In this document: piece by piece, positions 13,622 through 35,578 of the stretch
How the letters are laid out: each line of letters opens with the position of its first letter
Position numbering within the stretch: the first letter of the stretch is position 1
NCBI GenBank assembly: GCA_947630595.1
Contig: CANRIG010000030.1
Location: 1 to 35,578, forward strand
Source: an uncultured Lachnospiraceae bacterium
GTDB taxonomy: Bacteria; Bacillota; Clostridia; Lachnospirales; Lachnospiraceae
DNA: 35,578 nucleotides
Direction of reading: 5' to 3'
Translations under genes and position numbers: made by a program
Notes under the pieces: model-generated
What the model saw: only the letters and a program-made list of their open reading frames with translations
What the model was told of the DNA's origin: nothing
Databases searched by the model: none

Positions 13622-14698
13622 GTGATGGGAACTTATATAGAACCAGAGGTGCGCGCGCTGATCGAACGCCTGGAGGCGCGGCATGCTCTGGAGCGCTCCG
13701 AATACGCGTATCTGATCCGGCGCCGCTCGGACGCGGCGGCTGCGCTGCTCGCAAAAAAGGCCGTGGCCGTGCGGAAAAGCGTTTACGGGAACGCGGTCTA
13801 TGTGCGGGGGCTGATCGAGATCAGCAACATCTGCCGCAACGACTGCCTGTACTGCGGCATCCGCCGCAGCAACCGCTCCTGCGTCCGCTACCGGCTGACG
13901 GAGGAACAGATTCTCGCCTGCTGCGCGGAAGGCTACGCGCTCGGCTTTCGCACCTTCGTCCTCCAGGGCGGAGAGGACGCCTATTTTACGGACGAAGTGA
14001 TGTGCGGCCGGGTGCGCGAAATCAAAAGGCGCTGGCCGGACTGCGCGGTCACGCTCTCGCTCGGCGAGCGCAGCCGGGAGAGCTACCGGCGTATGTTTGA
14101 GGCGGGCGCGGACCGCTATCTGCTGCGGCATGAGACGGCGGACCGGGCGCATTACGGAAAGCTGCATCCGCCGCAGATGTCCTTCGATCACCGGCTGCAG
14201 TGCCTGCGCGACCTGAAGGACATCGGCTACCAGACCGGCTGCGGCTTTATGGTCGGCTCGCCGTACCAGACGGCGGAAACGCTGGCCGAAGACCTGAAGC
14301 TGATCGAGCGGTTCCGGCCGGAGATGTGCGGCATCGGCCCCTTTATCCCGCACCAGGCGACGCCGTTTGCGCACGAGCCCGCGGGGACGCTGGAGCTGAC
14401 CTGCTTTCTGCTCTCGGTCATCCGACTCATCCACCCGCGGGTGCTGCTGCCCGCGACGACAGCGCTGGGCACCATCGACCCGCAGGGCCGCGAGAAGGGC
14501 ATTTTGGCCGGCGCCAACGTGGTGATGCCGAATCTGTCGCCGGTTTCCGTGCGCGGAAAATATGAGCTCTACGACAACAAAATCAGCACCGGGGACGAAT
14601 CGGCGCAGGGACGCCGCGGACTGGAGCGGCGCATGGCCGCCATCGGTTACGAGGTCGTGACCGCCCGCGGGGATATCATGCCTGAGCAGGAAGCCTGA
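13622..14698 (+). CDS. hydE: [FeFe]-hydrogenase maturase HydE (radical SAM)
   Basis: Radical SAM enzyme that acts with HydG and HydF to build the 2Fe subcluster of the [FeFe]-hydrogenase H-cluster. The protein has 358 residues, normal for HydE. The SAM-cluster motif CRNDCLYC gives C71, C75 and C78, followed by the HydE-typical GIRRSNRSCVRYRLTEEQIL; later family features include LQGGEDAYF and GFMVGSPYQT. Translation may start at the GTG (13622) or the adjacent ATG (13625); GAGG at about 13609-13612 serves either. It lies 4 bp after the antiporter gene and 20 bp before hydG. No hydrogenase structural gene is in the window. Confidence 0.96.
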   Translation: MMGTYIEPEVRALIERLEARHALERSEYAYLIRRRSDAAAALLAKKAVAVRKSVYGNAVYVRGLIEISNICRNDCLYCGIRRSNRSCVRYRLTEEQILACCAEGYALGFRTFVLQGGEDAYFTDEVMCGRVREIKRRWPDCAVTLSLGERSRESYRRMFEAGADRYLLRHETADRAHYGKLHPPQMSFDHRLQCLRDLKDIGYQTGCGFMVGSPYQTAETLAEDLKLIERFRPEMCGIGPFIPHQATPFAHEPAGTLELTCFLLSVIRLIHPRVLLPATTALGTIDPQGREKGILAGANVVMPNLSPVSVRGKYELYDNKISTGDESAQGRRGLERRMAAIGYEVVTARGDIMPEQEA

Positions 14699-14718
14699 CA
14701 GGAGAAAGGAAGGAACAC

Positions 14719-16167
14719 ATGGCAGTTTACAATCCCAAATCTTTGAAAGCGGAGGAATTCATCAACCACGAGGAGATTCTGGAGACGCTGGACTATGCGG
14801 AGAAAAACAAGCGCAACACGGCGCTGATCGACGAGATTCTGGAAAAGGCGCGCCCGCGCCGGGCGGCGTCCGGCACGGTCTGCCAGGGACTCACCCACCG
14901 CGAGGCCTCGGTGCTGCTGGCCTGCGACCTTCCGGAAAAGGTCGAGGAAATGTATAAAATTGCAAAGGAGATCAAGCTGGCGTTTTACGGCAACCGCATT
15001 GTCCTGTTTGCGCCGCTGTATCTTTCCAACTACTGCGTAAACGGCTGCCTCTACTGCCCGTATCACCTGAAAAACAAGCACATCGCCCGCAAAAAGCTGA
15101 CGCAGGAGGAAGTGCGCCGGGAAGTCGTCGCGCTGCAGGACATGGGACACAAGCGCCTGGCGATCGAGGCCGGCGAGGATCCGGTCAACAATCCGCTGGA
15201 CTACATTCTGGAGTGCATCCATACCATTTACGGCGTTCAGCACAAAAACGGGGCCATCCGCCGCGTGAACGTGAACATCGCGGCGACGACGGTCGAGGAT
15301 TACCGCAGACTGAAGGAAGCCGGGATCGGCACCTATATCTTGTTCCAGGAGACCTACCACAAGCAGAGCTACCTGCAGCTGCACCCGACCGGGCCCAAGC
15401 ACGACTACGATTACCACACGGAGGCCATGGACCGCGCGATGGCGGGCGGCATCGACGATGTGGGCCTGGGCGTGCTGTTCGGCCTTGAGATGTATAAATA
15501 TGAGTTTGCCGGACTGCTGATGCACGCCGAGCACCTGGAGGCCGTGCACGGCGTGGGGCCGCACACGATCAGCGTGCCGCGCGTCAAGCACGCCGACGAC
15601 ATCGATCCCGAGGTGTTTGACAACTCCATCCCGGATGAGATGTTTGAGAAAATCATCGCCTGCATCCGCCTGGCGGTGCCGTACACCGGCATGATCATTT
15701 CCACCAGAGAGTCGCAGGAGGTCCGGGGCCGCGTGCTCGACCTCGGCATCTCCCAGATCAGCGGCGCATCCCGCACCTCCGTGGGCGGCTATGCGGAGGA
15801 GGAGCGTCCGCACGACTCCGAGCAGTTCGACGTGTCCGACCAGAGGACGCTGGACGAGGTGGTGCGCTGGCTGATGGAACAGGGCCACATCCCGTCGTTC
15901 TGCACAGCCTGCTACCGCGAGGGCCGCACGGGCGACCGCTTCATGAGCCTCTGCAAAAACGGCCAGATTCTCAACTGCTGCCACCCGAACGCGCTGATGA
16001 CGCTGACCGAGTACCTGGTGGACTACGCTTCGAAGGAGACAAGGAAGCTGGGCTTTGCGCTGATCGAAAAGGAGCTGGCGAAGATTCCGAAGGAAAAAAT
16101 CCGCGGCATCGCGGCGCAGCACATCGAAGAAATCAAGCATTCCGGCAGCCGCGATTTCCGGTTTTAA
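14719..16167 (+). CDS. hydG: [FeFe]-hydrogenase maturase HydG (tyrosine lyase, radical SAM)
   Basis: Radical SAM enzyme that cleaves tyrosine to p-cresol and dehydroglycine and makes the CO and cyanide ligands of the H-cluster on an auxiliary Fe-S cluster. The 482-residue length is normal. The N-terminal SAM-cluster motif is CVNGCLYC (C106, C110, C113). The C-terminal auxiliary-cluster motif CX2CX22C is intact (C395, C398, C421). AAGGAAGGA precedes the ATG. It is third in the antiporter-hydE-hydG-hydF set and is followed by a 13-bp tandem repeat before hydF. Confidence 0.97.
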   Translation: MAVYNPKSLKAEEFINHEEILETLDYAEKNKRNTALIDEILEKARPRRAASGTVCQGLTHREASVLLACDLPEKVEEMYKIAKEIKLAFYGNRIVLFAPLYLSNYCVNGCLYCPYHLKNKHIARKKLTQEEVRREVVALQDMGHKRLAIEAGEDPVNNPLDYILECIHTIYGVQHKNGAIRRVNVNIAATTVEDYRRLKEAGIGTYILFQETYHKQSYLQLHPTGPKHDYDYHTEAMDRAMAGGIDDVGLGVLFGLEMYKYEFAGLLMHAEHLEAVHGVGPHTISVPRVKHADDIDPEVFDNSIPDEMFEKIIACIRLAVPYTGMIISTRESQEVRGRVLDLGISQISGASRTSVGGYAEEERPHDSEQFDVSDQRTLDEVVRWLMEQGHIPSFCTACYREGRTGDRFMSLCKNGQILNCCHPNALMTLTEYLVDYASKETRKLGFALIEKELAKIPKEKIRGIAAQHIEEIKHSGSRDFRF

Positions 16168-16197
16168 GCAGCGCCGGCGGGTTTTTGCATACAGACT

Positions 16198-16275
16198 GAG
16201 AATATATACAGAGAATATATACAGAGAATATATACAGAGAATATATACAGAGAATATATACAGAGAATATATACA
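16198..16275 (+). repeat. six perfect 13-bp tandem repeats before hydF
   Basis: Six identical copies of GAGAATATATACA start at 16198, 16211, 16224, 16237, 16250 and 16263. The array begins 31 bp after the hydG stop and runs directly into the hydF ribosome-binding site (GAGGGAGG, 16276-16283). Perfect short repeats are prone to slipped-strand copy-number change. Being AU-rich in the mRNA, the array could keep the start region unstructured or provide a ribosome standby site. Confidence 0.97.
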
Positions 16276-16290
16276 GAGGGAGGCGCAGTT

Positions 16291-17706
16291 ATGGGCATGA
16301 ACGATATGGTTTCCGCGGAGCGCGTGCACATCGGCTTTTTCGGCGTGCGCAACGCCGGCAAATCAAGCGTGGTGAACGCGGTCACGGGGCAGGAGCTGGC
16401 GCTGGTCTCCGATGTGAAAGGAACGACCACGGACCCGGTGAAAAAGGCGATGGAGCTGCTGCCTCTGGGGCCGGTGGTCGTCATTGACACGCCCGGCATC
16501 GACGACGAGGGCGCGTTGGGCGGACTGCGCGTCAAAAAGGCGCGCCAGGTGCTCAACTACGCCGACGCGGCGGTGCTGGTGGCGGACGCCTGGAAAGGGC
16601 TGTGCGCTGCAGACCGGGAGCTGGTCGCGCTGTTTCAGGCGAAGCGCATTCCCTATGCGGTCGCGTACAACAAGGCCGACCTGCTGGCCGAAGACTCCAT
16701 TCCGGCCCGGACGGCGGAGCATGAGATTTACGTCAGCGCCCGTACCGGGTACAACATTTACGAGCTCAAAGAGCTGATTGCCCGCCTGGTGCGGCAGGAG
16801 GAAAACAAAAAGCGCATCGTCGCCGACCTGCTTGCGCCCGGCGACACAGCGGTGCTGGTGGTTCCCATCGATTCCGCCGCGCCAAAGGGACGCCTGATTC
16901 TGCCGCAGCAGCAGACCATCCGCGACATTCTGGAGGCCGGCGCGTCGGCGGTGGTCACGCGGGAGGACGGGCTGCGAAAGACGCTGGCCTCGCTGAAAGA
17001 GAAGCCGCGGCTGGTGATCACCGATTCGCAGGTGTTCGGCCCCGTCTCAGAGGACACGCCGAAGGACGTCTGGCTGACCTCATTTTCCATTCTGTTTGCG
17101 CGCTACAAGGGCGACTTAAACGCCGCCGTCCGCGGCGCGGCGCAGCTCGGCCATCTGAAGGACGGCGACACGGTGCTGATCGCCGAGGGCTGCACGCATC
17201 ACCGCCAGTGCGACGACATCGGCGCTGTCAAGATGCCGGCCTGGATTCGCGGTTACGCCGCGTCTGCGCGGCAAAGGCAGGCAATGGGCGGCTCCGGCGC
17301 GGGGCAGCAGGCTGCAGAAAATGCGGCGTCCGCGCGGCAAAGGCAGTCGGCGGACTGTTCCGGCGCGGGGCGGCAGGCTGCAGAAAATGCGGCGGCCGTG
17401 CGGCAGAGGCAGGCAATGGGCAGCTTCGGCGCGAGGCCACAGGCTACAGAAAGCGTCATGTCCGCGCCGCGGCTGCGGTTTGCCTTCACGTCCGGGATGG
17501 ATTTCCCGGAGAATCTGTCGGACTATGCGCTGATCGTGCACTGCGGCGGCTGCATGCTCAATGAGCGCGAGATGCAGTACCGCATGCGCCAGGCCGCCGA
17601 CGCGGGCGTGCCGGTCACCAACTACGGCATCGCCATCGCGCAGATGCACGGCATTCTGCGGCGCAGCTTGGAGCCGTTCCCGGAGGCGCTGAAGCTGCTG
17701 GACTGA
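16291..17706 (+). CDS. hydF: [FeFe]-hydrogenase maturase HydF with a repetitive insert
   Basis: GTPase and Fe-S scaffold that receives the 2Fe subcluster precursor from HydE and HydG and transfers it to apo-hydrogenase. The N-terminal GTPase domain has GVRNAGKS (18-25), DTPGIDD and NKAD. The C-terminal cluster domain has C301-T-H303 and H417-C-G-G-C421. In typical HydF the spacing between CxH and HCxxC is about 44-53 residues; here it is 113. The excess is a 66-residue insert (324-389) of three 22-residue repeats, and removing it restores 47. The insert is Ala/Gln/Arg-rich, probably disordered, and sits between IRGYA and PRLRFAFTSG without destroying either cluster motif. The protein has 471 residues. 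Translation starts at the ATG after GAGGGAGG. Identity is certain; whether the insert affects activity is unknown. Confidence 0.96.
   Translation: MGMNDMVSAERVHIGFFGVRNAGKSSVVNAVTGQELALVSDVKGTTTDPVKKAMELLPLGPVVVIDTPGIDDEGALGGLRVKKARQVLNYADAAVLVADAWKGLCAADRELVALFQAKRIPYAVAYNKADLLAEDSIPARTAEHEIYVSARTGYNIYELKELIARLVRQEENKKRIVADLLAPGDTAVLVVPIDSAAPKGRLILPQQQTIRDILEAGASAVVTREDGLRKTLASLKEKPRLVITDSQVFGPVSEDTPKDVWLTSFSILFARYKGDLNAAVRGAAQLGHLKDGDTVLIAEGCTHHRQCDDIGAVKMPAWIRGYAASARQRQAMGGSGAGQQAAENAASARQRQSADCSGAGRQAAENAAAVRQRQAMGSFGARPQATESVMSAPRLRFAFTSGMDFPENLSDYALIVHCGGCMLNEREMQYRMRQAADAGVPVTNYGIAIAQMHGILRRSLEPFPEALKLLD
17260..17457 (+). repeat. three in-frame 66-bp repeats inside hydF
   Basis: Units 17260-17325, 17326-17391 and 17392-17457 each encode 22 residues (pattern [AS]-x-RQRQ, then S/F-GA, then Q-A-x-E). 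Units 1 and 2 are the most alike; unit 3 has diverged. The unit length is a multiple of three, so copy-number change keeps the frame. Confidence 0.95.
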
Positions 17707-23636: not shown

Positions 23637-24773
23637 TTAGCGGTTCGTATTCAGCTGCTTCTCAAGCTCGGCGATGCGCTGCTCGAGATTCTGGATGATA
23701 TGACTGTATTCCTGAATCTGTGTTTGCTGGCTGTCAAGTACTGCCCTTTGGCTGTCGATCATAGCTTGCTGGCTGTCAAGTTCTTCCTTCTGGCTGTTGA
23801 TCATAGCTTGTCGGCTGTCAAGGTCCTCCTTCTGACTGTCAATTACAGCATCCTTGCTTTCAAGTTCCGCCTTTTGTCTGTCAATGTCTGCCTGCATCTC
23901 GTCGATCATGTACTGTACAGTATTCCGGTCAAGAATACGCAGTTCTTCTGAAAACATCTCCATCACCCTCTCCACATTCTGGCACAGACGGTATACGTCT
24001 TCATACATGGGCCTGAATTCCGGGTAAGCCCCGAGCAGCCGGAGGATGATCTCCGGGTCGTCCTGGCTGAGGAACGCAAGCCATGCTTCGGTCTCGTTGC
24101 TGACATCTTTATTCTGAATGTTCTGCCCGAAAATGTCAAGCGGTATGAACAGGTATTTCTGCAGGAGGTCCATTCGGAGGCCGGTGTTGGAGCGCTGCTC
24201 GAAATAGTGCAGGTAATCCTCCGGAAACTCCCGGAATCTTCCGGTGCTGTTCTCGATAAAGATAATGGTGTAAACTTCCTTGACCTCCAGGTAGCTGAAT
24301 TTCTTTTTCCGTCGGTCGCGGATTCGTTTGTATTGGCGCAGCAGGAGATCGGCGGAGTAGCAGGCGCTGCGCTGGCCGGGGAAGGCGTAGCCGATTTTCT
24401 GCGCTTCTACATCGGCCAGGCTGCCGTCGTCGAGCTGCACGATGATGTCCATGATCAGCAGGGAACTCTCGTCGGCGATGCGCGCAGAATCGCCCGGCAG
24501 GACCTGCTTGATGGTTACATGCCTTCCAAGCAGGACGGAGAGCAGCCGGTTGAGCCGCTCGGGAGTGTACTCGGGGCTGAGGATTTCCTTGAAGAAGAAA
24601 TCGTACAGCAGCTTGACGCCACGGACCCCGGTGCAAAAATCGAGAAATTCTTTCTGCTGGTGTGGCTGCCAGCTGTCAAACTGATGTCTGAGGGAAGGGG
24701 TGGACTGAATCTGCTCCAGCAGGGCTTCTCTTTCGTGAATCATGGGAAAATGCTGTTTCAGTTTGCTTGTCAT
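23637..24773 (-). CDS. Rpn/PD-(D/E)XK nuclease family protein with coiled-coil tail
   Basis: Protein of 378 residues in the Rpn (recombination-promoting nuclease)/putative transposase family with a PDDEXK-type fold. The likely catalytic residues are D109 (MDIIVQLDDG) and E123-x-Q125 (DVEAQ). Members are commonly chromosomal, and their roles in recombination or phage response are only partly known. Residues about 290-375 form a coiled coil built from 14-residue repeats ([DN]SQ..-[LM]-[DN]SQQ-type). GAGGAGG precedes the ATG, and it has its own promoter and terminator, so it is a single-gene unit. No terminal inverted repeats were seen, so it is not an intact insertion sequence. Lower GC than its neighbours is compatible with transfer. 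Confidence 0.85.
   Translation of the reverse strand: MTSKLKQHFPMIHEREALLEQIQSTPSLRHQFDSWQPHQQKEFLDFCTGVRGVKLLYDFFFKEILSPEYTPERLNRLLSVLLGRHVTIKQVLPGDSARIADESSLLIMDIIVQLDDGSLADVEAQKIGYAFPGQRSACYSADLLLRQYKRIRDRRKKKFSYLEVKEVYTIIFIENSTGRFREFPEDYLHYFEQRSNTGLRMDLLQKYLFIPLDIFGQNIQNKDVSNETEAWLAFLSQDDPEIILRLLGAYPEFRPMYEDVYRLCQNVERVMEMFSEELRILDRNTVQYMIDEMQADIDRQKAELESKDAVIDSQKEDLDSRQAMINSQKEELDSQQAMIDSQRAVLDSQQTQIQEYSHIIQNLEQRIAELEKQLNTNR
23731..23898 (-). repeat. 42-bp tandem repeats encoding the coiled-coil tail
   Basis: Units start at 23731, 23773, 23815 and 23857; the last is diverged. Each encodes 14 residues (two heptads). Copy-number change would lengthen the coiled coil in steps of two heptads while keeping the frame. 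Confidence 0.85.
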
Positions 24774-24933: not shown

Positions 24934-25046
24934 TAGCCTTGTACGAAAGTGCTTTTACAGCGATGTTAAGGGCTAAAATCTTAGCCAAAACGGCATGACG
25001 TTTGAATCAGCATTTTACAGAAAATTTTTCTAAGGGGCTGCAAAAT

Positions 25047-26129
25047 ATGCACTTAAAAAAAGAAAGGGCGTTCGCTTTTATCATCACCGCAGCGTCAGCT
25101 GCAGCTATCATCATCGGAGCAGGGACACCATTGGTCAAAAGTACGGCTGCCGCACTTAGTTTAGCCGCTGTTGCCTCTTTCTTTAGCACCCCTCTCGTAT
25201 ATCGGCTGGCGTACCGGATCCATGCCCTGGATGTCCCCAGAGATGGCCGGCGGATGCACGACCATCCAATTCCGCGTATCGGCGGTCTGGCCATGATCTT
25301 TGGTTTTGCTGCCGGCACGCTTATCTTTGGACCTGCGGCAAAACAGCTGCAGAATATATTTCCCGGAATGTCCGTTATTACGGACGGAGCAGAACGGGAG
25401 ACACTGTCAATGCTGCGAAGCATATTGCCCGGGGCCGTCATAATTGCAGCGCTGGGCCTGGCGGATGATATTCATGCTCTCGGGCCCTGGCCGAAACTGG
25501 CGGTACAGATAATGGCCGCTTTGGCGACGGTACGGGGCGGAAACGTCATAGAAGCCATATCGGGCATTTTTACTGCAAAGACATACCCGCTGCCGGGCTG
25601 GCTGGGGCTGCTGCTCAGCGTACTGTGGATAGTCGGTATTACAAATTCTGTCAATCTGATTGACGGGCTGGATGGCCTGGCATGCGGCATCTCCGCTGTC
25701 AGCGCTATTGCTGCCGCGCTTATTTCCGGAGCGGTTACAGGCTCCTTTGCTGTCATACCGGCGGCTTCCCTGGCCGGGGCCTGCATTGGATTTTTGCCTT
25801 ACAATCTCAATCCTGCCTGGATTTTCATGGGAGATACGGGAGCCACGTTCCTGGGATACATTCTGGCGGTAACGTCCATCCGGGGACTTTTCCGATATCC
25901 GGGGAAAGTTCCTTTTGCCGTGCCCTGCCTGATACTCGGCCTGCCCATTTTCGACACCGTTTTTGCCATTGTACGCCGGGTCGTCCATGGACGGTCTCCT
26001 CTGCTGCCTGATCAGGGTCATGTCTACCACCGACTCATAAATCGGGGTCTTTCCCGGAAACAGACGACAGCTTTGCTGTGGATGGTCAGCGCCGCTTTGA
26101 GTATACTCGCGGCGCTGATTGTGTTATAG
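25047..26129 (+). CDS. MraY/WecA-family polyprenyl-phosphate sugar-1-phosphate transferase
   Basis: Polytopic membrane enzyme of 360 residues that transfers a sugar-1-phosphate (often GlcNAc-1-P) from a UDP-sugar to undecaprenyl phosphate, the first step of teichoic acid, exopolysaccharide or related glycan synthesis. Family motifs are DDIHALGPWPKL, the catalytic NLIDGLDGLA, MGDTGATFLG and a C-terminal HVYHRL, closer to WecA/TagO than MraY. The ATG at 25047 follows AAGGGG with 9-base spacing; a TTG 15 codons upstream lacks a site. Its product would be the expected acceptor of the WecG/TagA-like enzyme encoded at 32412-33182, although the two genes lie on opposite strands. The polymer is unknown. 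Confidence 0.92.
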   Translation: MHLKKERAFAFIITAASAAAIIIGAGTPLVKSTAAALSLAAVASFFSTPLVYRLAYRIHALDVPRDGRRMHDHPIPRIGGLAMIFGFAAGTLIFGPAAKQLQNIFPGMSVITDGAERETLSMLRSILPGAVIIAALGLADDIHALGPWPKLAVQIMAALATVRGGNVIEAISGIFTAKTYPLPGWLGLLLSVLWIVGITNSVNLIDGLDGLACGISAVSAIAAALISGAVTGSFAVIPAASLAGACIGFLPYNLNPAWIFMGDTGATFLGYILAVTSIRGLFRYPGKVPFAVPCLILGLPIFDTVFAIVRRVVHGRSPLLPDQGHVYHRLINRGLSRKQTTALLWMVSAALSILAALIVL

Positions 26130-26216: not shown

Positions 26217-27983
26217 TCAAGTGACGGAACAAACCGTGTGAATATGTCCGTCCTCAATGCGGTAAATCCGGTCACAGCCGGCTACAGCCGAAGCGCGGTG
26301 AGAAATGATAATCATCGTTCTTTCCCCGCGCAGATTCTGAATAGAGTGAATTACGGAAGCTTCCGTTTCCGGATCCAGCGCGGAAGTCGCCTCATCGAAA
26401 ACAATAAGCCTTGAGCCCTTGTACAGGGCCCGGGCAATCCCCAGCCGCTGACGCTCGCCCCCTGAAAGGCGGATGCCGTTTTCTCCTATGAGGGTGTCCA
26501 GCCCGTCCGGGAGTTTTTTCACAAAATCCCCAAGAGAAGCCTTATACAGCGCCGTCCAGACAGCGCTGTCATCGGCGCTGCCCGCAGGCGCACAAAAAAC
26601 GACATTATTCCGGATGGTATCATCCAGCAGAAAAATATTCTGCGGAATGTATGCGGTCTGCCGCAAATAGCTGCTGAGGCAGCGCCGGATGTCCGCGCCG
26701 CCTATGCGCACACTCCCTTCCTGCGGTTCCAAAAGACCCAGCAGGAGATCGATCAGCGTCGTTTTGCCAATGCCGGATGGACCGGTGATGCCGACGGAGG
26801 AGCCGGAAGAAATCTCCAGATTTATATCCGTAAGAATCGGTTCCGGTCGGCTTTCATAGGAAAACGTGACATGCGACGCGGTAATACTGCCGGACAGGTC
26901 CGCATCTTCCTGCGCGTCTGTATGTTCCCGGTTATTATCTGTCTGTGCATTTCCCTGAGATACTTTGCCCGCCTCCGTTTCCCGAAAATATTCCAGCGCG
27001 TCAACTACTTTTTCCGCTGATGCCCGCATATTTGCGATTCGAACCAGATTGCCGCTGATGCGCCGGACAGCCGGCAGCAGACGGATCACAGCGGCGGCCA
27101 GCGCGGCCAGGTTCGGGAGAGCGTCCGCTATATTCTGTCCCAGGAGAGTCAGGCCAAGGATATAGGCCAGAATGGATACGGCCATAATAGCCTCGATGCA
27201 CAGACCGGGAATTCTGGTCAGCGCCCGCTGTCTGGAATCGCAGTCCGCCACGACGCCGTCTTCCTTTTCATAGCATGCGCTGAAATGCTGTTCCGCCTGC
27301 CAGACCTTAATTGCTTTGATTCCCTGGACGCCTTGCTTCAGCCATTTCAGACGCTGCGCGTGGGCAATTTGCCGTTCCTTCCCGGCCCTGTAGGCGGAAG
27401 GCTTGATGAAGCTGCGCGTAACAAGGAGAGACAATCCCGCGCCCAGAAGCACGCACAGGGTCATCGCCGGGCTGATGAAAGCCAGCGCCGTGCCAATAAC
27501 GACTAATACCAGTGCTTCCGATACAAGATCCAGAAAAGCGTTCAGATATCCCCCTGTACGGACAGTGTCTGTATTCAGCAGGCTGATAACTTCCGCTGTA
27601 CTGGCATTGGAAAACCAGGAGTATGGTCTGCAGAGTATACCAGTGTAAAGCTTTGAGGAGACATTGTGCTGTATCTCGCATACAAATCGCGCCAGAACAT
27701 GGTTTTCAAGCAGGAGAAATACCATTTTGAACAAGTACAGTATGATGAGGGCAATCAGGCAGCCGGCTCTGGCAGCCGGCCCGGAGCTGATACCGATCTG
27801 ACTGAGAAAACGGCCGATAATCCGGCTGCCTGTCACATCTGTGCCTGTAAGGAAAGAACAGGCCTCCATAATCATCGCAATTCCCAGCATTTCCAGCAGA
27901 GAGCCGAAAAACATCATCATGATCAGGGCGCACAGTTTCTTTTTTGGAGTTGAGCCCATAAGGCCTGAAACATTGTTTAACAT
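26217..27983 (-). CDS. ABC exporter of the peptide cluster (membrane + ATPase fusion)
   Basis: Protein of 588 residues with an N-terminal six-helix domain (about 20-310) and an ATPase with Walker A GPSGIGKTT (about 401), signature LSGGERQR (about 506) and Walker B LIVFDEATSALD. It has no N-terminal C39 peptidase domain, so it would export a mature product rather than cut a leader itself. A hydrophilic insert (about 335-370) joins the domains. It is the last gene of the minus-strand block containing peptide, kinase, PqqD, peptidase and nucleotidyltransferase, 90 bp after the last of these. Its layout resembles McjD/PglK-type single-chain exporters. Homodimer formation is likely because both sites look canonical. 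Cargo (peptide or lipid-linked sugar) is inferred from context. Confidence 0.88.
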   Translation of the reverse strand: MLNNVSGLMGSTPKKKLCALIMMMFFGSLLEMLGIAMIMEACSFLTGTDVTGSRIIGRFLSQIGISSGPAARAGCLIALIILYLFKMVFLLLENHVLARFVCEIQHNVSSKLYTGILCRPYSWFSNASTAEVISLLNTDTVRTGGYLNAFLDLVSEALVLVVIGTALAFISPAMTLCVLLGAGLSLLVTRSFIKPSAYRAGKERQIAHAQRLKWLKQGVQGIKAIKVWQAEQHFSACYEKEDGVVADCDSRQRALTRIPGLCIEAIMAVSILAYILGLTLLGQNIADALPNLAALAAAVIRLLPAVRRISGNLVRIANMRASAEKVVDALEYFRETEAGKVSQGNAQTDNNREHTDAQEDADLSGSITASHVTFSYESRPEPILTDINLEISSGSSVGITGPSGIGKTTLIDLLLGLLEPQEGSVRIGGADIRRCLSSYLRQTAYIPQNIFLLDDTIRNNVVFCAPAGSADDSAVWTALYKASLGDFVKKLPDGLDTLIGENGIRLSGGERQRLGIARALYKGSRLIVFDEATSALDPETEASVIHSIQNLRGERTMIIISHRASAVAGCDRIYRIEDGHIHTVCSVT

Positions 27984-28073
27984 GGTTATGCTCTTTCTTA
28001 ATCTCTATGGCACGTCAATTTCTGTCTGATTTTATGTTGTTTATTCTTAATAAAGCCTGCACATCGCACAGAT

Positions 28074-29267
28074 TCATCGGGGGATGTCCTCCCGCGATTC
28101 ACTCTGTTTCCACCTCATAGCGGATATGAGCATTTTCAGATTTACGCGTCCGTTGATAAATACGCCCCGAAAAAGTCGATATGCCCAGACAAAAGGCCTG
28201 GCCCACCGATTATGGTAAGCGAAGGGCGCGTTGTCCCGATACCATTCCCGGCCCGGAAACATTCGTTCCAGCAGATATCTCGCCCGGACCTTTGCGGGAT
28301 TGATGTCCTCCTGCTGCAGCCGGCGCATATCGTTTTGAGCACGATGCTCTGCCGTTCCGTACACACCGGAGGCTTCTATCCATGTTAACATTTTTCTTTC
28401 CGCCTCCGTCAGAGCGGAGACGGGCGGCGGCCCGAACAGCTTTTCTCCCAGAGAACAGAAAAGCAGCTCAAAGTTCTCCAGCCCCAGTTTTTTTAATTCT
28501 TCCATAACGTACGTCCTGTTCATACCAGACTGGGTCTGCCGGTAGAGGTACACGTCCAGCACAGACCGCAGGCCCGTACCGCCGCCAATGTAGTGTTTAT
28601 AGATGTGGGCGAGTAAATAGACGTAATGATCCTCGCTGCTGAAATGGTAGCCGAATTCGTTCGCCGTGTCTTTAACGAGCCGTTCTTTCACATTCCTGTA
28701 ATAGGAGACACAGCCGGATAAAAACGCTGATCCTTCTTCCGCGAATAACGCCCGGTGCATTTCAAAAATATAAAATGGCGGTTTATAATAGGCGCCATGA
28801 ACTCTCTGACTCATACTCTCGGCCCTGTAGCCCTGAAGTTTCATGAAGTTTCGGATCTCCTGCCACTGATCTGCGTCGATCAGAATATCATTGTCAGCAA
28901 ACTGCCGGGCTCCATACCGGGGATAAAGGCTGTTCAGAGTCACTCCTTTGAGGGGCGCATACCAGATACCTTTTTTCTCCAGAAGGGCCAGCAGCTTTTC
29001 CCGTTCCGCATCCACAAGCAGGGTTTTGCGAATGGACTGCACTTTCTTTTCCTGAAAGCGTCCGGCCGTCTCTGCCGGGCACTGGGCCATCAGCCCTGTG
29101 TACTCCAGCGCGAAGCAGGCCGCTGCGGTCAGCGAATGTTTGTCTGCGATCTCCCCAAGGGCCTCGAAGTCCGGCATTTCCACCATCTCTGCCGGAACGT
29201 TATGAATCCATGCCGCCAGCAGACAGTACAGCGTATCATACGTCTTTTCCAATGATTCACTGTTCAT
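28074..29267 (-). CDS. NTP_transf_5-like nucleotidyltransferase
   Basis: Protein of 397 residues resembling the uncharacterised nucleotidyltransferase family (Pfam NTP_transf_5) often found in lasso-peptide and polysaccharide clusters. The core motif is LKGVTLNSLYPRYGARQFADNDILID: L106-K-G, R121 and the acidic residues D125, D127 and D131, expected to bind Mg-NTP. The C-terminal half is helical and Arg-rich, with no motif I know. GGAGG lies 7 bases before the ATG. It overlaps the upstream peptidase gene by 11 bp, so translation is probably coupled. By family it might transfer a nucleotidyl or related group to the peptide or to a protein; no substrate is proven for close relatives that I can name. 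Confidence 0.8.
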   Translation of the reverse strand: MNSESLEKTYDTLYCLLAAWIHNVPAEMVEMPDFEALGEIADKHSLTAAACFALEYTGLMAQCPAETAGRFQEKKVQSIRKTLLVDAEREKLLALLEKKGIWYAPLKGVTLNSLYPRYGARQFADNDILIDADQWQEIRNFMKLQGYRAESMSQRVHGAYYKPPFYIFEMHRALFAEEGSAFLSGCVSYYRNVKERLVKDTANEFGYHFSSEDHYVYLLAHIYKHYIGGGTGLRSVLDVYLYRQTQSGMNRTYVMEELKKLGLENFELLFCSLGEKLFGPPPVSALTEAERKMLTWIEASGVYGTAEHRAQNDMRRLQQEDINPAKVRARYLLERMFPGREWYRDNAPFAYHNRWARPFVWAYRLFRGVFINGRVNLKMLISAMRWKQSESREDIPR

Positions 29268-29706
29268 GGTGCCGCCTCCATTTCTTTACTATTCTGTCCG
29301 GCAGTTCTAAGCACCGCCGGATTGTGATGCGCAGCCGGAACGAACCGCACCATAGAACCACATATAGCCGGTAGCGCCAATCTGTTATCGATATTTCCCG
29401 TCCGTCCCGCACAAAAGCAGTCAGCACGCCGACAATCTGCTCCTGTCTTATGCTTCGCTCAGAGATACGATTATGGTCTCCGCGAAACACATATTCGCCC
29501 GTTCCCGTTTCTATGACCCGGTGAAGGATGTACTTTCCATCTTCATCCCGATAAAGCGCTACATCGTGTTTTCTAAGCCGCCCACAAGGCGGTTCCAGGA
29601 TAATCAAATCCCTCTTTTGCCGCAGCATGGGCAGCATACTGATTCCCGTGGTAGTGTAGACCAGCCTGCCATACCTGGCCAATATATCCTCAAAACATGC
29701 GTTCAT
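29257..29706 (-). CDS. small S24/S26-family peptidase, Ser/His type
   Basis: Protein of 149 residues related to signal peptidase I. The nucleophile motif is G21-I-S23-M-L-P, matching SMxP of S26 enzymes. Where bacterial signal peptidases carry the general-base Lys, this protein has H62 in YILHRVIE, as in SipW/ER-type (Ser-His) enzymes. A later FRGDHN matches the conserved GDN-type box. There is no N-terminal membrane anchor; a moderately hydrophobic stretch (about 111-132) could peripherally associate with membrane. It overlaps both the PqqD-like gene (4 bp) and the nucleotidyltransferase gene (11 bp). In this context it is a candidate for cutting the small peptide encoded at 30783-30887, which is inference. 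Confidence 0.82.
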   Translation of the reverse strand: MNACFEDILARYGRLVYTTTGISMLPMLRQKRDLIILEPPCGRLRKHDVALYRDEDGKYILHRVIETGTGEYVFRGDHNRISERSIRQEQIVGVLTAFVRDGREISITDWRYRLYVVLWCGSFRLRITIRRCLELPDRIVKKWRRHHEQ

Positions 29707-29957
29707 TCTTCGATGGCCCCGAGTGAGCGCAGCTTTTCCACCACGCGCTCCACATCCTTTTCGATCACTTCACGGGACGCATCGAAACGCGCTTCCAGCA
29801 TATCTGTCAGCTGTTCGACCGTAGCAGGTTTCTTCAGCCGTTCAATGATCAATGCTGCAGTTTTGTTGCTGCGAACCATGCCCAAAAAACCTTCTGTGGC
29901 AACCATGATATGTTCATTGTCTGAGACATAAGTAATAAATGCGTCCTTCAGCTTCAC
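29703..29957 (-). CDS. PqqD-like peptide-binding protein (RiPP recognition element)
   Basis: Protein of 84 residues with the PqqD fold pattern: a beta region (FITYVSDNEHIMVATEG), then helices (SNKTAALIIERLKK, VEQLTDMLEARF, VIEKDVERVVEKLRSLGAI). PqqD-like domains bind leader peptides of ribosomally made natural products and present them to modifying enzymes. The GTG start overlaps the kinase stop by 4 bp (GTGA), with GGAGG 9 bases upstream, and its own stop overlaps the peptidase gene by 4 bp. This implies near-equal production of kinase, PqqD and peptidase. It stands alone rather than fused to an enzyme, as B1 proteins of split lasso-peptide systems do. Confidence 0.88.
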   Translation of the reverse strand: MKLKDAFITYVSDNEHIMVATEGFLGMVRSNKTAALIIERLKKPATVEQLTDMLEARFDASREVIEKDVERVVEKLRSLGAIEE

Positions 29958-30697
29958 AGTTCTGTTCCTCCATTTATTCCTTCATAAGCTGTCCGGGCGG
30001 CCTCTGCGGACATATCAGCGCCCAGACGGTATATTTTCACGGTTCGGGACAGTTTGTCTGTCAGGGACAAGACTTTCCTTTCGCTCTCGTTCATTAAGTG
30101 ATAGCTTTGCCGGTAGAGGATGGGGAAAGCGTCATGCGGTCTGACCGGCTCGATGAAGCTTTTTTCGCTTCGCTCTAACAGGCAGATGGCTTTTACCGGT
30201 GCAAAGGTATTCGTATTTAATCCGTGCTTACCGCTCCAGGGAGCCCCGAAAGCTGTCGTTCCTCCTTCGGTGATACGCAGGAGAGGCATATCGTCATTGA
30301 TCATGGTCGCCCGCTTTCCGAAGAGCGTCTGCCAGTATCGGGCGTGAGTGGACTTCCCCGTGCCGCTTTTCGCGGCAAACAGATACGCCTCCCCGCCCAC
30401 AGCCACACAGGAGGAATGGAAAAAAAGCGTATCTTCCCGGAGCAGCTGCTCTGCCAGCAGATCATGAATGATCAGTTCTTCCACGTATCCGTCCGTCCAG
30501 TTTTGATACGGCAGACGATATTTTTTCCATATCAGTTCCATTTGCGGACGCTTTTCCCGGATAAGCTCATCATCTGTTTTAATTGTGAACTCCGGCGCGC
30601 CGATACAGCGATACGCCAGACATGTCCGGTGGATGTTCTCATGGACAGAGATACAAGCCCACTTTTTCCCGGCCAGAGAATAAATACCTTCTATCAT
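29954..30697 (-). CDS. HPr-kinase-like protein kinase
   Basis: Protein of 247 residues resembling HprK-type kinases of RiPP clusters. The P-loop is AAKSGTGKSTHA (about 108-119) and a downstream INDDMPLL gives the acidic metal-binding pair. The N-terminal HPr-kinase receptor domain of true HprK is not seen. In paeninodin-like lasso clusters such kinases phosphorylate a Ser of the precursor peptide; here the adjacent candidate peptide has Ser residues in its C-terminal part. The ATG at 30697 is preferred because GAGGA lies 10 bases upstream; a TTG seven codons earlier (30718) is possible. It is the first of four overlapping genes, with an imperfect hairpin between it and the peptide gene. Confidence 0.85.
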   Translation of the reverse strand: MIEGIYSLAGKKWACISVHENIHRTCLAYRCIGAPEFTIKTDDELIREKRPQMELIWKKYRLPYQNWTDGYVEELIIHDLLAEQLLREDTLFFHSSCVAVGGEAYLFAAKSGTGKSTHARYWQTLFGKRATMINDDMPLLRITEGGTTAFGAPWSGKHGLNTNTFAPVKAICLLERSEKSFIEPVRPHDAFPILYRQSYHLMNESERKVLSLTDKLSRTVKIYRLGADMSAEAARTAYEGINGGTEL

Positions 30698-30725
30698 ATC
30701 CCATACATCCTCTTCCAAATGAACA

Positions 30726-30758
30726 GAGCGACAGGCTGTCCCGTCGCCCTGTCCGCTC
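30726..30758 (-). terminator. hairpin between peptide and kinase genes (possible attenuator)
   Basis: On the minus strand GAGCGGACAGG pairs with CCTGTCGCTC (one bulged base) around a 12-base loop, followed by TGTTCATTTG. It lies between the small peptide gene and the kinase gene. A leaky terminator here would give more peptide mRNA than enzyme mRNA, as is common in RiPP operons. The weak U-run makes this tentative. Confidence 0.45.
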
Positions 30759-30782
30759 AGTTTGTCTACAGTGTTAAAATAA

Positions 30783-30887
30783 TTATTCTGCTTCTCCGCC
30801 GCTGTCGCCGGAACCAGTCCTGATTAAAACTTCATCCTCTCCGAACTCGATGACCTCCATCTCCGGAACTACATAGACTTCCTTCAT
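30783..30887 (-). CDS. 34-residue acidic peptide, candidate RiPP precursor
   Basis: A short gene with a strong ribosome-binding site (GGAGG, 8 bases before ATG). The product begins MKEVYVVPEM and ends GSGDSGGEAE; between lie VIEF (12-15), GEDEV (16-20) and LIRT (21-24). It is very acidic. The Y5-x-x-P8 pattern resembles the YxxP element of lasso-type leaders that PqqD-like proteins bind, and the Thr at 24 followed by Gly/Ser-rich residues resembles a leader-core border. The tail offers Ser26 and Ser29 as kinase targets and Glu/Asp side chains for possible cyclisation. It has no signal peptide or membrane segment. It lies just before the kinase, PqqD, peptidase, nucleotidyltransferase and exporter genes on the same strand. 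The coding call rests on the start signals and context; its function as a precursor is inference. Confidence 0.72.
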   Translation of the reverse strand: MKEVYVVPEMEVIEFGEDEVLIRTGSGDSGGEAE

Positions 30888-30994: not shown

Positions 30995-32347
30995 TTAGCT
31001 TTTTCTTCTGCTTTCAGAAATAGAATCCCCCGCCAGCAATCCCAGCCCGGCCCAGAGGAAAGGCGCCGTGATGGCAAGGTTCAGATTAAAAAAGTCCTGA
31101 ATCAGGTAGCAGACGACGCCTGCCCCAAACGCCGCGCAGAGGCCGTTTCCCCTGTTCCGGATCCAGCCGGAGAGGCCTTTTCCGATCAGCGCCAGATAGC
31201 AGCCCAGTCCCAGGATTCCCGTGTCCATGAGATATCCGAGGTATGTGTTGTGCGTGTTGTAAACCACATTTACACGATCCCATGCTTCATTCACTTTCTG
31301 TATTTGAAGCAGCCAGCAGCCTGAGCACGGCCCGTTTCCCAGAATGGGCTTTTTGACGACGGATTCCCATGCTTTCATCCAGGTCTCGACACGGTCGTGC
31401 CCGAACGACGGCTCGATGTGACCGTGCAGGATCTGGGATGCCTCATAAATAAACCCGCTCTTCCCGGGCCAGAAATAAACGGCCGCCAGCCCGAGGGCGA
31501 TGGCCGCCGCGCTGGCGATCGCGGCGTATTTTGCCCCTTTGCGGTTTCGGATGACGACCGGAAGCGTAAGAACCAGACAGCCGATCAGACCGACCTTCGA
31601 GGCATCCACGTCAATATGATACAGAATGTGCAGCGAGAGAACCGCAGGAACCAGCAGGAGTCTGTCCTGCTTTCTGGCGGAACGAACCGCATATACTGCG
31701 AGGACGGGAACCGCAAAGCAGAGGAACGCCGCCAGAAAGTCTATATTCCCCATTGTTCCGAGAAAAGCGAACGCGTATTCCTTATGCTTGTTGTAGTAGG
31801 TCAGGCCCTCCGGGTACATGGTCAGCGGGTTGTAGCCCGCCAGCTGGATTTCCGACAAAAGCCCGGAAAGGAACGTGGAAAATCCCAGCGCCCAGATGTG
31901 TTCCCGCCGCAGGCATCCGAAAAGGGAAGCGCCCATGAAAACTATTATGTAAAACGTCATGATCATGACGCTGTTCGTGTTGGACGCGCTTATCTGCAGG
32001 AAACCGGTCTGCGGATATTCGGACAAAATCGCCGAGACAATATTGACGCCAAGGAACGCCAGGGCAGCGCCGTGAATCCAGTGCAGCCGTATAGAAACAG
32101 GCGTCTTCTTTTTTATCCTGCACCAGGCCAGATACCCGGCAAGGCCGGACAGCCACAGGGCGGTAAGCCCCAGCCAGAACCAGGTCTTCACCTGAACCAG
32201 ATTGCCATAGCGGTATTCGCCCGTCCCGACAACCAGCGGGAAAACGCCAAAGAGCAGCAGAAAATAGAGATCCGACATTTTATGGCAGACTTCCAGAGGG
32301 GTCATGTATCCGGATTTCTTACGCCGCCGCTTCTTTTTTGATGCCAT
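30995..32347 (-). CDS. O-antigen ligase/polymerase-like membrane protein
   Basis: Polytopic membrane protein of 450 residues with about 11-12 hydrophobic segments after a basic N-terminus (KKKRRRKK). The large extracytoplasmic loop carries the Wzy_C-type pattern RVETWMKAWESVVKKPILGNGP followed by NTHNTYLGYLMDTGILGLG. Such proteins move lipid-linked glycans onto an acceptor or polymerise them (WaaL/Wzy; in some bacteria glycan-to-protein transfer). GGGAGG lies 11 bases before the ATG. It follows the WecG/TagA-like gene by 64 bp and precedes the small peptide gene by 107 bp on the same strand. An acceptor cannot be named. Confidence 0.87.
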   Translation of the reverse strand: MASKKKRRRKKSGYMTPLEVCHKMSDLYFLLLFGVFPLVVGTGEYRYGNLVQVKTWFWLGLTALWLSGLAGYLAWCRIKKKTPVSIRLHWIHGAALAFLGVNIVSAILSEYPQTGFLQISASNTNSVMIMTFYIIVFMGASLFGCLRREHIWALGFSTFLSGLLSEIQLAGYNPLTMYPEGLTYYNKHKEYAFAFLGTMGNIDFLAAFLCFAVPVLAVYAVRSARKQDRLLLVPAVLSLHILYHIDVDASKVGLIGCLVLTLPVVIRNRKGAKYAAIASAAAIALGLAAVYFWPGKSGFIYEASQILHGHIEPSFGHDRVETWMKAWESVVKKPILGNGPCSGCWLLQIQKVNEAWDRVNVVYNTHNTYLGYLMDTGILGLGCYLALIGKGLSGWIRNRGNGLCAAFGAGVVCYLIQDFFNLNLAITAPFLWAGLGLLAGDSISESRRKS

Positions 32348-32411: not shown

Positions 32412-33182
32412 TTATACGCCTCTGTAAGTTAAGGTATCGAAAAAATTTTTAAAGCCTGCTTTTACCGCTTCTGCAGCTGCCAGCAGGGGCACTGTCAGAG
32501 AACGGCATACCCTGCCAAAACGCCAGGGCTCCTGCAGAAAGCGCCAGAGCCATTCCAGGTTGTGTTCCCGCCAGGCTTTCGGGGCGCGTTTCAGGCTGCC
32601 GGCGGTAATGTCAATCCAGCCGCCGCAGCCGCAGGCGAGCGACGCTCCCGTCAGCCGCCCGTATTCCATCATCCACAGCTCCTGCTTCGGAGAACCGAGA
32701 CAGACCAAAACCAGATCCGGCCTGCTTTTCGCAATTTCTTCGGCCATTGCTTTGGGATCTTCAAAATAGCCGTGGTGTACGCCGCAAAGCACCAGCTCCG
32801 GACAGCGGCTGCGCAGATTTTTCGCCGCCTGTTTTGCCACGCCAGGCTTTCCGCCCAGGATGTAAACGCGGGTTCCGCGCAGCCTGGGCAGCAGAGCGTC
32901 CAGCAAATCGATGCATGGCACGCGCTCCTGCAGGGGATTTTTCAGGATGCGGGCGGCGCAGAGAACGCCGTAGCCGTCCGCCAGCGACAGATCCGCCCGG
33001 TTGATGGCCCTGCGGTAGGCCGCGTTTTTGCGCGCCATCCGCAGCAGGTTGGCGTTCGTCCCGGCGATGTAACGATAGGAACCGCCCCGGACCATGCAGG
33101 CGGCTCTTTTAACCGCTGTTTTCAGCATGATGCTGTCAAACTTTACCCCGAAGACCTCAGGGCGTCCCATACAGTTTCCCAC
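32412..33182 (-). CDS. WecG/TagA/CpsF-family glycosyltransferase (GT26)
   Basis: Membrane-associated glycosyltransferase of 256 residues that typically adds the second sugar (ManNAc or ManNAcA) to undecaprenyl-PP-GlcNAc. Family features are TNANLLRMARKN near the N-terminus, the catalytic-Asp segment LADGYGV, VYILGGKPGVA, and LVLVCLGSPKQELWM followed by the Gly-rich CGCGGWIDITAG. The GTG at 33182 has AAAAGGAG 8 bases upstream; an ATG four codons later is an alternative. It heads the minus-strand block and would use the product of a WecA-like enzyme such as the one at 25047-26129. The exact donor sugar is not deducible. Confidence 0.93.
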   Translation of the reverse strand: MGNCMGRPEVFGVKFDSIMLKTAVKRAACMVRGGSYRYIAGTNANLLRMARKNAAYRRAINRADLSLADGYGVLCAARILKNPLQERVPCIDLLDALLPRLRGTRVYILGGKPGVAKQAAKNLRSRCPELVLCGVHHGYFEDPKAMAEEIAKSRPDLVLVCLGSPKQELWMMEYGRLTGASLACGCGGWIDITAGSLKRAPKAWREHNLEWLWRFLQEPWRFGRVCRSLTVPLLAAAEAVKAGFKNFFDTLTYRGV

Positions 33183-33321: not shown

Positions 33322-35578
33322 TCAGTGTTTTTCCGTTTTTCTCCTGCGCCTGAACCCAAGGAACAGCAGTACCGCAGCCGCCGCCACGAATGCGATTGCA
33401 AACGGGAGGATCGGGGTTTCGTCGCCGGTCTTGACAGACTTGGTGTCCGTCGGTTCCGTCTCGCTTTCAGGGCTGCTCTCCTTGTTGGTGATGGTCGCCG
33501 ATGCCGTCGTGGTATTTTCATCCATCGTAATGACTGCGCCTTCTACCGTTACCTCGTAACGGAACGATGCCGCGTTTGCCACCGGGATGCCGTTCGCATC
33601 CACCTCGGTCACATACAGGGTCTGTACGTGATCCGGATTGATGGCTGCCTTGACCGTCACGCTTACGCTTGACCGGCCGTTCAACGACAGCGGTACGATA
33701 TTCTGCGATACCTGGTCGGACAGGGTCGTGTGGTTCGCGTCCGCGAAGATGCCTGCGTAGAAGGTCTCGCTGCTGTTCTTCGGATTGCCGTTTGCATCAA
33801 GCAGGCGCTTGGTGATCGTCAGTTCGCCCTCACGGTAATATTTTTCCTCGTCCTCGATGTTTGTGATCGCTACCGTCGCCGCCGTGTTCGCCTCATCCAG
33901 GGTTACCGTGCCGTTCTCCACGCTGACCGCGTAGCGGAACAGCGCCGCGCCGTCCACCGGTTTGCCGTTTTCATCCGTCTCGGTCACGTACAGGGTCTGT
34001 GCGCTGTCCGGAGCAATCGACACTTTCACCGTATTGCCTGCGCTTGACCCGCCGTTCAGATCGAGCGGAACAACGTTCGGCGATACCTGGTCGGACAGGG
34101 TTGTGAATTCCGCATCCGCGAAGATACCTGCGTAGAAAGTCTCATCGCTGTTCTTCGCCGCGCCGTCCGGGCCGAGCAGGCTCTTGGTCACGGTCAGCTC
34201 GCCCTCGCGGTAGTAATCCTCCGGGACGGTCTGGAATTCGTTGCGGAAGTATACCGTCCGTGTTCCTTCGCCTTCTGCGATCGTCACCTCATTGCCGTTC
34301 ATGAAGTTCACTGTAAAGACATCTTCGCCTGCGGCCACGCCGCCTGCATTGTTGAGCACGTTGCCCGCCGCATCGACCTCGGCCACGTAATAGGTCTGGC
34401 CGTTCGTGAGGCCGGTGAAGGTTACCGAGGATGCGCTTGCATTGCGGAACTCGATCGCCTGGATCTCCGATACCCGGTCGGTCAGCGCCGCGTCGCTGTA
34501 CAGCGCCACGTAGAAGGTTGCGTTTTCCGCCGCCCACGTCTCGCCGTTGCTTGTAAGTTCCTTGGTCACTACCAGCTGGCCGTCCTGCGGTTCCGCCTGG
34601 TTGGTTACGGTCAGGCTTACATTGACGCCAGCGGTCGCGCTGGTATTCTCCGGGCTGATCGTGAATTCATATCTTGCGTCCGGGTCTGCGATAAATCCTG
34701 CCGGCGCCTGTGTCTCGACGAAGTAGTAATTGCCCGCCGGGAGACCCGGCACGGTCAGCGTTCCGTTCACATCCGTCGTGTAGCTGCCGGTCGTATTGGT
34801 ACCGGTGTAAACGCCCCATTCTCCGGCTGTATTCTGCGCATAGAGCTGGAATACGGCGCCCGGGAGCAGCACACCGTCCGTGCTGGTCTTGGTCAGCGTT
34901 ACGGAGCCTGCGAAGGTATTGATGAAGGTAAGTTCGCCATCTTCAAGCGGCTCACCGTTTTCGTGGGTAAATGCTACATTCAGCGTGCCATCGCCGCTAT
35001 CGGTTACGTCTGCAATAAGATTGTAAGTATCGCCGCTGTACCTTACACCTGGCAAGTTTCCGGTTGCCTCTGTTAATGTAAAGTTAAACGTACCATTTAC
35101 ATCCTCTTCTGTAAACGGTAACATTTCACCGCTTACACCCAGCGCCTTGCCGATACCGGTAATCCGGAAGCTGCCGTCCGCGCCGTTCGTGGCTGTGCCG
35201 ACTACCTGGCCTGCTTCGTTCCGCACTTCAAACGTAAACTCGCCCGCCTGCAGCTCGCGCCCATTCAGCACTTTCCTTCCGTCTACTTCGCCCAAGCCTT
35301 CCGCTTCATAGATATTGATGAACGTCTGGTTATTCGAACCGTCCGCCCATGCCAGGCCCAGCTCGCCGCTGTTCTTATCATATGTCGCTACCAGTGTCAG
35401 GTACTTCGGCGTCGTATCATTCGTTACGCCCGGCCTGCTTCCGGATTCAGTCAGCGTGTAGTGGAACTCCTTCGTGTAGATGCCGTCCTTGCCCGTCCCG
35501 ACAAGCACATCCGCCATGTCGTCCAGTGTGATCTTGATCGCGTTCTTCTCAAAGCCCGTGATCGCGCCGCTCACGCCG
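33322..35578 (-). CDS. sorted surface protein with pilin/SpaA-type domains (5' end beyond window)
   Basis: C-terminal 750 or more residues of a large wall-anchored protein; the frame remains open to the right edge. From the N-terminal side it has two Spy0128/FctA-like domains, one SpaA-type domain with Lys in VTLTKTSTDG, Glu in FVETQAPAGF and Asn in LTVTNQ (the isopeptide triad), one module like those of the left surface protein (QLVVTKELTSNG), and two FYAGIFAD-type modules. The end has the variant sorting motif VKTGDE, a hydrophobic segment and an Arg/Lys tail, matching the left protein. It is probably a major stalk or backbone protein anchored by a sortase encoded elsewhere. A patch around 34970-35130 is visibly more AT-rich. 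Confidence 0.88.
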   Translation of the reverse strand, partial: GVSGAITGFEKNAIKITLDDMADVLVGTGKDGIYTKEFHYTLTESGSRPGVTNDTTPKYLTLVATYDKNSGELGLAWADGSNNQTFINIYEAEGLGEVDGRKVLNGRELQAGEFTFEVRNEAGQVVGTATNGADGSFRITGIGKALGVSGEMLPFTEEDVNGTFNFTLTEATGNLPGVRYSGDTYNLIADVTDSGDGTLNVAFTHENGEPLEDGELTFINTFAGSVTLTKTSTDGVLLPGAVFQLYAQNTAGEWGVYTGTNTTGSYTTDVNGTLTVPGLPAGNYYFVETQAPAGFIADPDARYEFTISPENTSATAGVNVSLTVTNQAEPQDGQLVVTKELTSNGETWAAENATFYVALYSDAALTDRVSEIQAIEFRNASASSVTFTGLTNGQTYYVAEVDAAGNVLNNAGGVAAGEDVFTVNFMNGNEVTIAEGEGTRTVYFRNEFQTVPEDYYREGELTVTKSLLGPDGAAKNSDETFYAGIFADAEFTTLSDQVSPNVVPLDLNGGSSAGNTVKVSIAPDSAQTLYVTETDENGKPVDGAALFRYAVSVENGTVTLDEANTAATVAITNIEDEEKYYREGELTITKRLLDANGNPKNSSETFYAGIFADANHTTLSDQVSQNIVPLSLNGRSSVSVTVKAAINPDHVQTLYVTEVDANGIPVANAASFRYEVTVEGAVITMDENTTTASATITNKESSPESETEPTDTKSVKTGDETPILPFAIAFVAAAAVLLFLGFRRRRKTEKH

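Follow-up and report, generated by a model that had tools for sequence, protein, structure and literature searches.

The window analyzed here, a 35,578-nucleotide stretch that is the entire contig 30 of the genome (G000) of an uncultured Lachnospiraceae bacterium (CANRIG010000030.1, assembly GCA_947630595.1), carries a cluster of six genes that resembles those for Linear Polyphosphorylated Peptides (LPPs). It has a leader type of its own, and the kind of cluster has already been published. We put at about 85% the probability that this gene set is an LPP-type cluster for a ribosomally synthesized and posttranslationally modified peptide (RiPP) and that the mechanism proposed below holds as a whole. 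By analogy with the published system, the product is most likely a short, linear, phosphorylated peptide that is exported. From our own analysis come the gene content, gene order, kinase and peptidase catalytic residues, leader family, and lack of a cyclase or B2 protease match; phosphorylation, cleavage that depends on a RiPP recognition element (RRE), and a linear product are carried over from the homologous published system, and for the window we infer the cleavage site, the phosphosite, the action of the NTP transferase, and export.

LPPs were described in May 2026 in Nature Communications from the lpp cluster of Paenibacillus alginolyticus DSM5050 (PMC13381572). According to that report, the product is a linear, multiply phosphorylated peptide, and a SpI-like leader peptidase replaces B2. 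LppK phosphorylates the precursor up to four times, and core Ser3 is the sole site; LppS removes the leader, aided by LppB, a peptide-binding RRE; LPP leaders have Y, not W, in the RRE motif; deletion of LppN caused no detectable change in the published host; and LPP clusters are reported within capsule loci (PMC13381572). The window has the equal six components (SpI-like peptidase, discrete RRE, HprK-like kinase, NTP transferase, MsbA-like transporter, and precursor), a YxxP leader with a variable C terminus, and capsule-type or glycan neighbors, and, like the LPP system, it needs neither cyclase nor B2. It differs in gene order (A-K-B-S-N-D versus the published A-K-B-S-D-N), in core length (predicted at about 14 residues versus 45 in LppA), in host group, in the half of the leader that adjoins the core, and in having Thr at a position that is mostly Ser in related peptides.

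The first-pass annotation, made from the DNA letters alone, had proposed a non-canonical system for a phosphorylated, possibly nucleotidylated, exported, non-lasso peptide. Its gene set is real; the kind is not new, since it is that of the published LPPs. Because an LPP system with an equal gene set makes a linear, multiply phosphorylated peptide, the phosphorylated, exported, non-lasso product is supported, as is the placing of an S26-type peptidase where B2 would be expected, LPP clusters using a SpI-like leader peptidase there (PMC13381572). Nucleotidylation is unproven, given that the LppN deletion was silent and that the related PsmN is linked to hexoses.

All six genes (Table 1) lie on the minus strand and are open, with the catalytic residues of the kinase and the peptidase retained. 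The kinase and PqqD-like genes overlap by 4 bp, the PqqD-like and S26-like genes by 4 bp, and the S26-like and NTP_transf_5 genes by 11 bp, so that the coordinates, order, and 4- to 11-bp overlaps given in the earlier annotation are confirmed from the open reading frames (ORFs). Pfam and NCBIfam scans made its family calls firm for PqqD (PF05402, E 1.6e-15), NTP_transf_5 (PF14907, E 2.5e-40), and the ABC protein (PF00005, E 1.1e-28; it also scores with MsbA and PglK models, under their cutoffs), moderate for SpI/S26 (TIGR02228, E 5.1e-8, under the curated cutoff), and weak for the HprK-like kinase, which matched ScmC (3.5e-5) and HprK_rel_A (0.0078) in NCBIfam and nothing in Pfam up to an E value of 1.

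Table 1. Coordinates of the LPP-like gene set and of the flanking glycan genes in the window
Feature	Position	Strand	Basis or remark
Precursor peptide (LppA-like), 34 aa, acidic	30783..30887	-	RRE-binding motif Y5-xx-P8; family profile
HprK-like peptide kinase (LppK-like)	29954..30718	-	Weak HprK-type NCBIfam matches; H101, K122, D142, D143
PqqD-like discrete RRE (LppB-like)	29703..29957	-	PF05402
SpI/S26-like leader peptidase (LppS-like)	29257..29706	-	TIGR02228; S23, H62
NTP_transf_5 protein (LppN/PsmN-like)	28074..29267	-	PF14907; putative phosphate modifier, by analogy
MsbA-like ABC exporter (LppD-like)	26217..27983	-	ABC_tran PF00005
Flanking glycan gene, Wzy_C O-antigen ligase-like	30995..32347	-	Pfam; also beside the L064 cluster
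Flanking glycan gene, WecG/TagA-type glycosyltransferase	32412..33182	-	Family scans; L064 counterpart
Flanking glycan gene, WecA/MraY-like glycosyl transferase family 4	25002..26129	+	Family scans; L064 counterpart

The kinase starts at a TTG codon, with an alternative in-frame ATG at 30697. Its SGTGKSTH loop is intact, and H101, K122, and D143, numbered from the TTG start, are invariant in an alignment of 14 sequences; the H/K/D/D motif was taken from PMC9266682. The putative catalytic pair of the S26-like peptidase, S23 and H62, is invariant across eight aligned proteins, and its spacing of 39 residues is that of S29 and H68 in LppS.

With a profile derived from 55 peptides at other loci, the window peptide ranked first of 403 window ORFs at 29.6 bits, and the best of 2,000 shuffles reached 10.2 bits under the same profile, which argues against a chance ORF; the final profile excludes the window peptide, which had been included in the first seed of the iteration. 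The peptide is also the sole match to its family in G000 at an E value of ≤10, in this case with a model that includes it. It has no Cys, and its RRE motif is Y5VVP8, of the YxxP type. The cut position in LPPs, after T-1 and 15 residues past the leader Tyr, would fall after V20 here, and this spacing gives a predicted core of about residues 21 to 34 (approximately LIRTGSGDSGGEAE).

Of 200 genomes from the host's family, 39 have the kinase (E ≤ 1e-10), G000 among them; of 391 genomes from the class, 107 have it (E ≤ 1e-30), with many shorter matches in the latter set that presumably belong to other systems. From a scan of named genomes, the best 80 of at least 568 kinase relatives were kept, and 79 were analyzed, L116 having no kinase gene model. 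Going by record title, Clostridia or clostridial groups account for 72 of the 80 loci, with many gut or rumen assemblies among them, and eight stand under other names (L056, L084, L088, L096, L101, L103, L119, and L129). On the same strand and within 6 kb of the kinase, the 79 loci had a PqqD gene in 52 cases, S26 in 57, NTP5 in 36, ABC in 28 (a count from one BLAST cluster), and a recognized peptide in 38, contig ends being common nearby; the gene order recurs. Fusions of kinase to PqqD (L129), of S26 to NTP5 (L045), and of S26 to an ORF matching the window ABC protein (L040 and L046) argue that the parts of the cluster work together. The locus adds a group of LPP-like clusters, mostly in Clostridia-titled records, with a distinct leader and short cores. 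As a separate observation, more distant HprK-like kinases in L048, L049, L050, and L051 adjoin CxxxCxxC ORFs that resemble radical SAM proteins, and in L048 to L050 ORFs of some 90 aa that begin like a leader lie beside them as well.

Several points weigh against an LPP-type assignment. The PqqD profile matched the structures 9x8z (E 1.8e-5), which may be LppB, and 9x90 (3.3e-4), and it matched 6jx3 (TfuB1) and 5v1u (TbiB1) better, which leaves membership in the LppB clade unsettled. The kinase stands without the other parts in 9 of the 79 relatives, many of whose contigs stop nearby. The common leader pattern of the related peptides, approximately YxxPxxEVIxFxxEDVIxTS, is distinct from the published consensus YxxPxVLxHQxIxFETxxS, of which the window leader, compared by eye, keeps YxxP and lacks HQ and FET. 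Finally, the window has Thr where Ser stands in 47 of 52 scored relatives (the 52 of the 55 profile peptides that fitted the scoring pattern), and an S3T variant was not phosphorylated by LppK (PMC13381572). Another Ser, at position 26 or 29, may be the phosphosite in the window peptide.

We propose that the PqqD-like RRE would bind the 34-aa peptide by its YxxP leader and present it to the HprK-like kinase, which would add one or more phosphates at a Ser or Thr just past the leader. The SpI-like Ser/His peptidase would remove the leader from the RRE-held peptide, the NTP_transf_5 protein may then put a sugar or a nucleotide onto the phosphate, and the MsbA-like ABC protein would export the short, acidic, linear product.

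The closest relatives supply the first of three alternatives. Four loci have PqqD proteins with 64 to 70% identity to that of the window: in L054 (70%) the peptide is Cys-free and we saw no radical SAM gene, and in L063, L064, and L066 (64 to 67%) a radical SAM gene adjoins a peptide with a Cys-containing core. This enzyme, found in place of a cyclase or B2, was unforeseen by the earlier annotation. Clusters of this type (L063, L064, L066, and L101) share with the window the kinase, PqqD, and S26 families, and NTP5 or ABC where the contig reaches, and differ from it in the extra enzyme and the Cys-containing core. The WecA, WecG, and Wzy genes of L064 are 68 to 74% identical to those of the window, WecA differing in place and orientation, and L064 also has a SpaA-like gene; the likeness of the three glycan genes indicates that two versions of the cluster occur in a similar glycan-gene setting. 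The window set might then be what remains of a radical SAM RiPP cluster after loss of the radical SAM gene and the Cys core, with the phosphorylation genes merely accessory, a history to which three of the closest relatives and the shared neighbors of L064 lend some color. We consider it improbable, however: the window peptide is Cys-free, its six genes are open with their kinase and peptidase catalytic residues intact, L054 presents a Cys-free set in which no radical SAM gene was seen, a count by one BLAST cluster puts the radical SAM cluster in only 7 of 80 loci, and a search of G000 with the L064 radical SAM protein gave a distant best match, 27% identical over part of its length.

The same glycan neighbors would fit a second alternative, in which the enzymes serve surface-glycan synthesis with a sugar or lipid as their substrate, the cargo flipped by the ABC protein is a lipid-linked sugar, and the peptide ORF is unrelated or of minor weight; WecA-, WecG-, and Wzy-like genes flank the set, and the ABC protein scores below cutoff with both MsbA and PglK models. 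This is very unlikely, as 38 of 79 loci have a member of the peptide family next to the kinase and the set includes an RRE; PqqD-type RREs are peptide binders. In the published LPP system, LppB is such a binder, and the peptide that is phosphorylated is the system's own (PMC13381572).

Lasso-peptide clusters share much of this machinery. Paeninodin-like clusters have the kinase, NTP transferase, and discrete RRE in common with LPP clusters (PMC13381572), a rumen study lists HPr kinase, PqqD, and nucleotidyltransferase genes in lasso clusters (PMC7533575), and in paeninodin and pseudomycoidin an HprK-like kinase acts on a C-terminal Ser, PsmN being reported as needed in pseudomycoidin for hexoses on the phosphoserine (PMC9266682). 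Like the window, the paeninodin and pseudomycoidin systems have an HprK-like kinase, a nucleotidyltransferase-type protein, and, in paeninodin-like clusters, a discrete RRE; unlike it, they have a macrolactam cyclase, B2, and mostly a WxxP leader, whereas the window leader is YxxP. Neither the lasso cyclase (PF00733, E ≤ 1e-8) nor B2 (PF13471, Transglut_core3, E ≤ 1e-3; run without a known lasso-B2 genome as a positive control) had a match in G000, whose listed completeness is 99%, so that the absence of both enzymes noted earlier for the locus extends to the genome, and a lasso reading was rejected on these grounds. A predicted core of at most about 14 residues is also short for a threaded lasso. 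Thus, even though the leader motif, kinase, B1-like protein, NTP_transf_5 protein, and exporter are common to paeninodin-type lasso clusters, a lasso cluster with its cyclase and B2 elsewhere in the genome is nearly refuted.

Within what was searched, no cyclase or B2 gene was found in the locus of close relatives. Across 50 further genomes with related loci, the B2 search gave a weak partial match in nine, one of these matches being above the cutoff (in a 725-aa frame), and PF00733 matched in 32 of the 40 of these genomes in which it was sought, as expected for asparagine synthetase; the contigs of PF00733 and kinase matches were compared by eye, where a match to the C-terminal domain described below supplied the contig number. 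In L071 (positions 5726 to 7739), a recombinase-like ORF adjoins an asparagine-synthase-like stretch with stop codons directly downstream of the kinase and PqqD genes; the PF00733-matching stretch looks like an asparagine synthetase fragment.

The biological role of LPPs is left open in the published report (PMC13381572), and a comparison with surface partners outside the window offers a concrete, testable idea. In many relatives, the peptide gene adjoins, usually with the partner upstream, a gene for a large protein of about 560 to 2,955 aa whose N terminus looked signal-like on inspection by eye, and in many a nearby gene encodes a small protein in which a lipobox or membrane segment is combined with a short tail and a disordered body rich in S, T, P, and E; we call this small protein a stalk. 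The occurrence of related gene sets beside giant surface proteins and membrane stalks suggests a cell-surface role that can be tested. In 25 of the 100 loci examined, a C-terminal domain shared by the large proteins lies within 5 kb of the kinase, a few of these being fragments. The best copy of the domain ends 0 to 6 residues from the C terminus except in L035 (21 residues) and in a partial match within a 417-aa ORF of L076. No Pfam family matched more than one of 23 aligned members (best E 0.008), six whole proteins having been scanned as well, and a confident structure model (pLDDT 90.6, pTM 0.82) predicts beta strands followed by two helices.

Six of 200 genomes from the host's family have the domain, and five of the six are kinase positive (Fisher test, 0.0012); the sixth match is partial and weak, and the domain and kinase counts apparently come from one draw. 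The domain occurred in 36 of 51 genomes searched, G000 being among the 15 without it, a proportion biased upward because kinase loci were the reason for choosing the other 50, some of which also went into the model. The genome of L099 (G229) has 30 domain matches, unusually many among the 51. Among 78 loci with at least 3 kb upstream, 13 had domain and stalk, 8 the domain only, 7 the stalk only, and 50 neither (Fisher test, 2.9e-5, with related loci not independent). G000 gave no match to the domain at an E value of ≤10 and no second GGEAE-type tail (up to one mismatch, one DNA pattern; stalks with other tails were not sought). Searches aimed at the stalk and domain arrangement turned up no paper on it in an open-licence library.

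In some loci the peptide core resembles the tip of the stalk. The motif [DEN][LTMI]P[FWI][VI]P occurred 13 times in ORFs of at least 80 aa across the 100 loci: 11 times in a stalk-like protein, no more than 5 residues from its C terminus, once at the free end of a C-terminally anchored stalk (L071), and once in an LPXTG-type SpaA protein (L064). Core and tip pairs include GELPFVPAE and IELPFVPAF (L082), EDELPWVPA and EDELPWIPA (L108), ESGWSGYY and DDGWTGYY (L036), and GGAGNED and GGAGTED (L121), and their codons are partly different, which argues against a very recent copy. For 20 automatically chosen pairs, the own-pair mean was 23.65 versus 15.53, above all 20,000 shuffles, in the same loci where the pattern was first noticed. 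The effect was carried by the 8 pairs that score at least 24, a line drawn post hoc (L036, L072, L073, L082, L091, L108, L111, and L121); several others rank low, and for six pairs from the window's own family the permutation was nonsignificant (3,135/20,000). Out of sample, 60 loci of the class yielded a peptide in 11, the domain in 4, and one peptide and stalk pair (L217); for 20 loci from the family of G213, L283 duplicating L090, the corresponding counts were 8, 4, and 2 (L286 and L288). None of these three later pairs, too few for a permutation, shows the likeness by eye.

We tentatively suggest, as an idea we regard as doubtful, that LPP-type peptides in these bacteria are part of surface-protein display: the domain would bind the stalk tip (often ELPFVP), and the exported phosphopeptide core might act as a soluble look-alike of the tip that competes for or tunes this binding, holding or releasing the large secreted protein. 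The window's partner would then be different or lost.

Elsewhere in the window, the plus strand carries, at 13622 to 17706, a GTPase-like ORF with a short in-frame repeat, preceded by two radical SAM-like ORFs; we take the three to resemble HydE, HydG, and HydF, the [FeFe] hydrogenase maturation set. The ORF at 23637 to 24773 on the minus strand, possibly a PD-(D/E)XK transposase-like protein, ends in a run of similar repeats (DSQKEELDSQQAMI..). Near the contig ends are two large surface-protein-like ORFs with a sortase-like tail (..KTGDETPI..), at 159 to 5456 on the plus strand and 33322 to 35574 on the minus strand, the latter with SpaA and FctA domains in Pfam.

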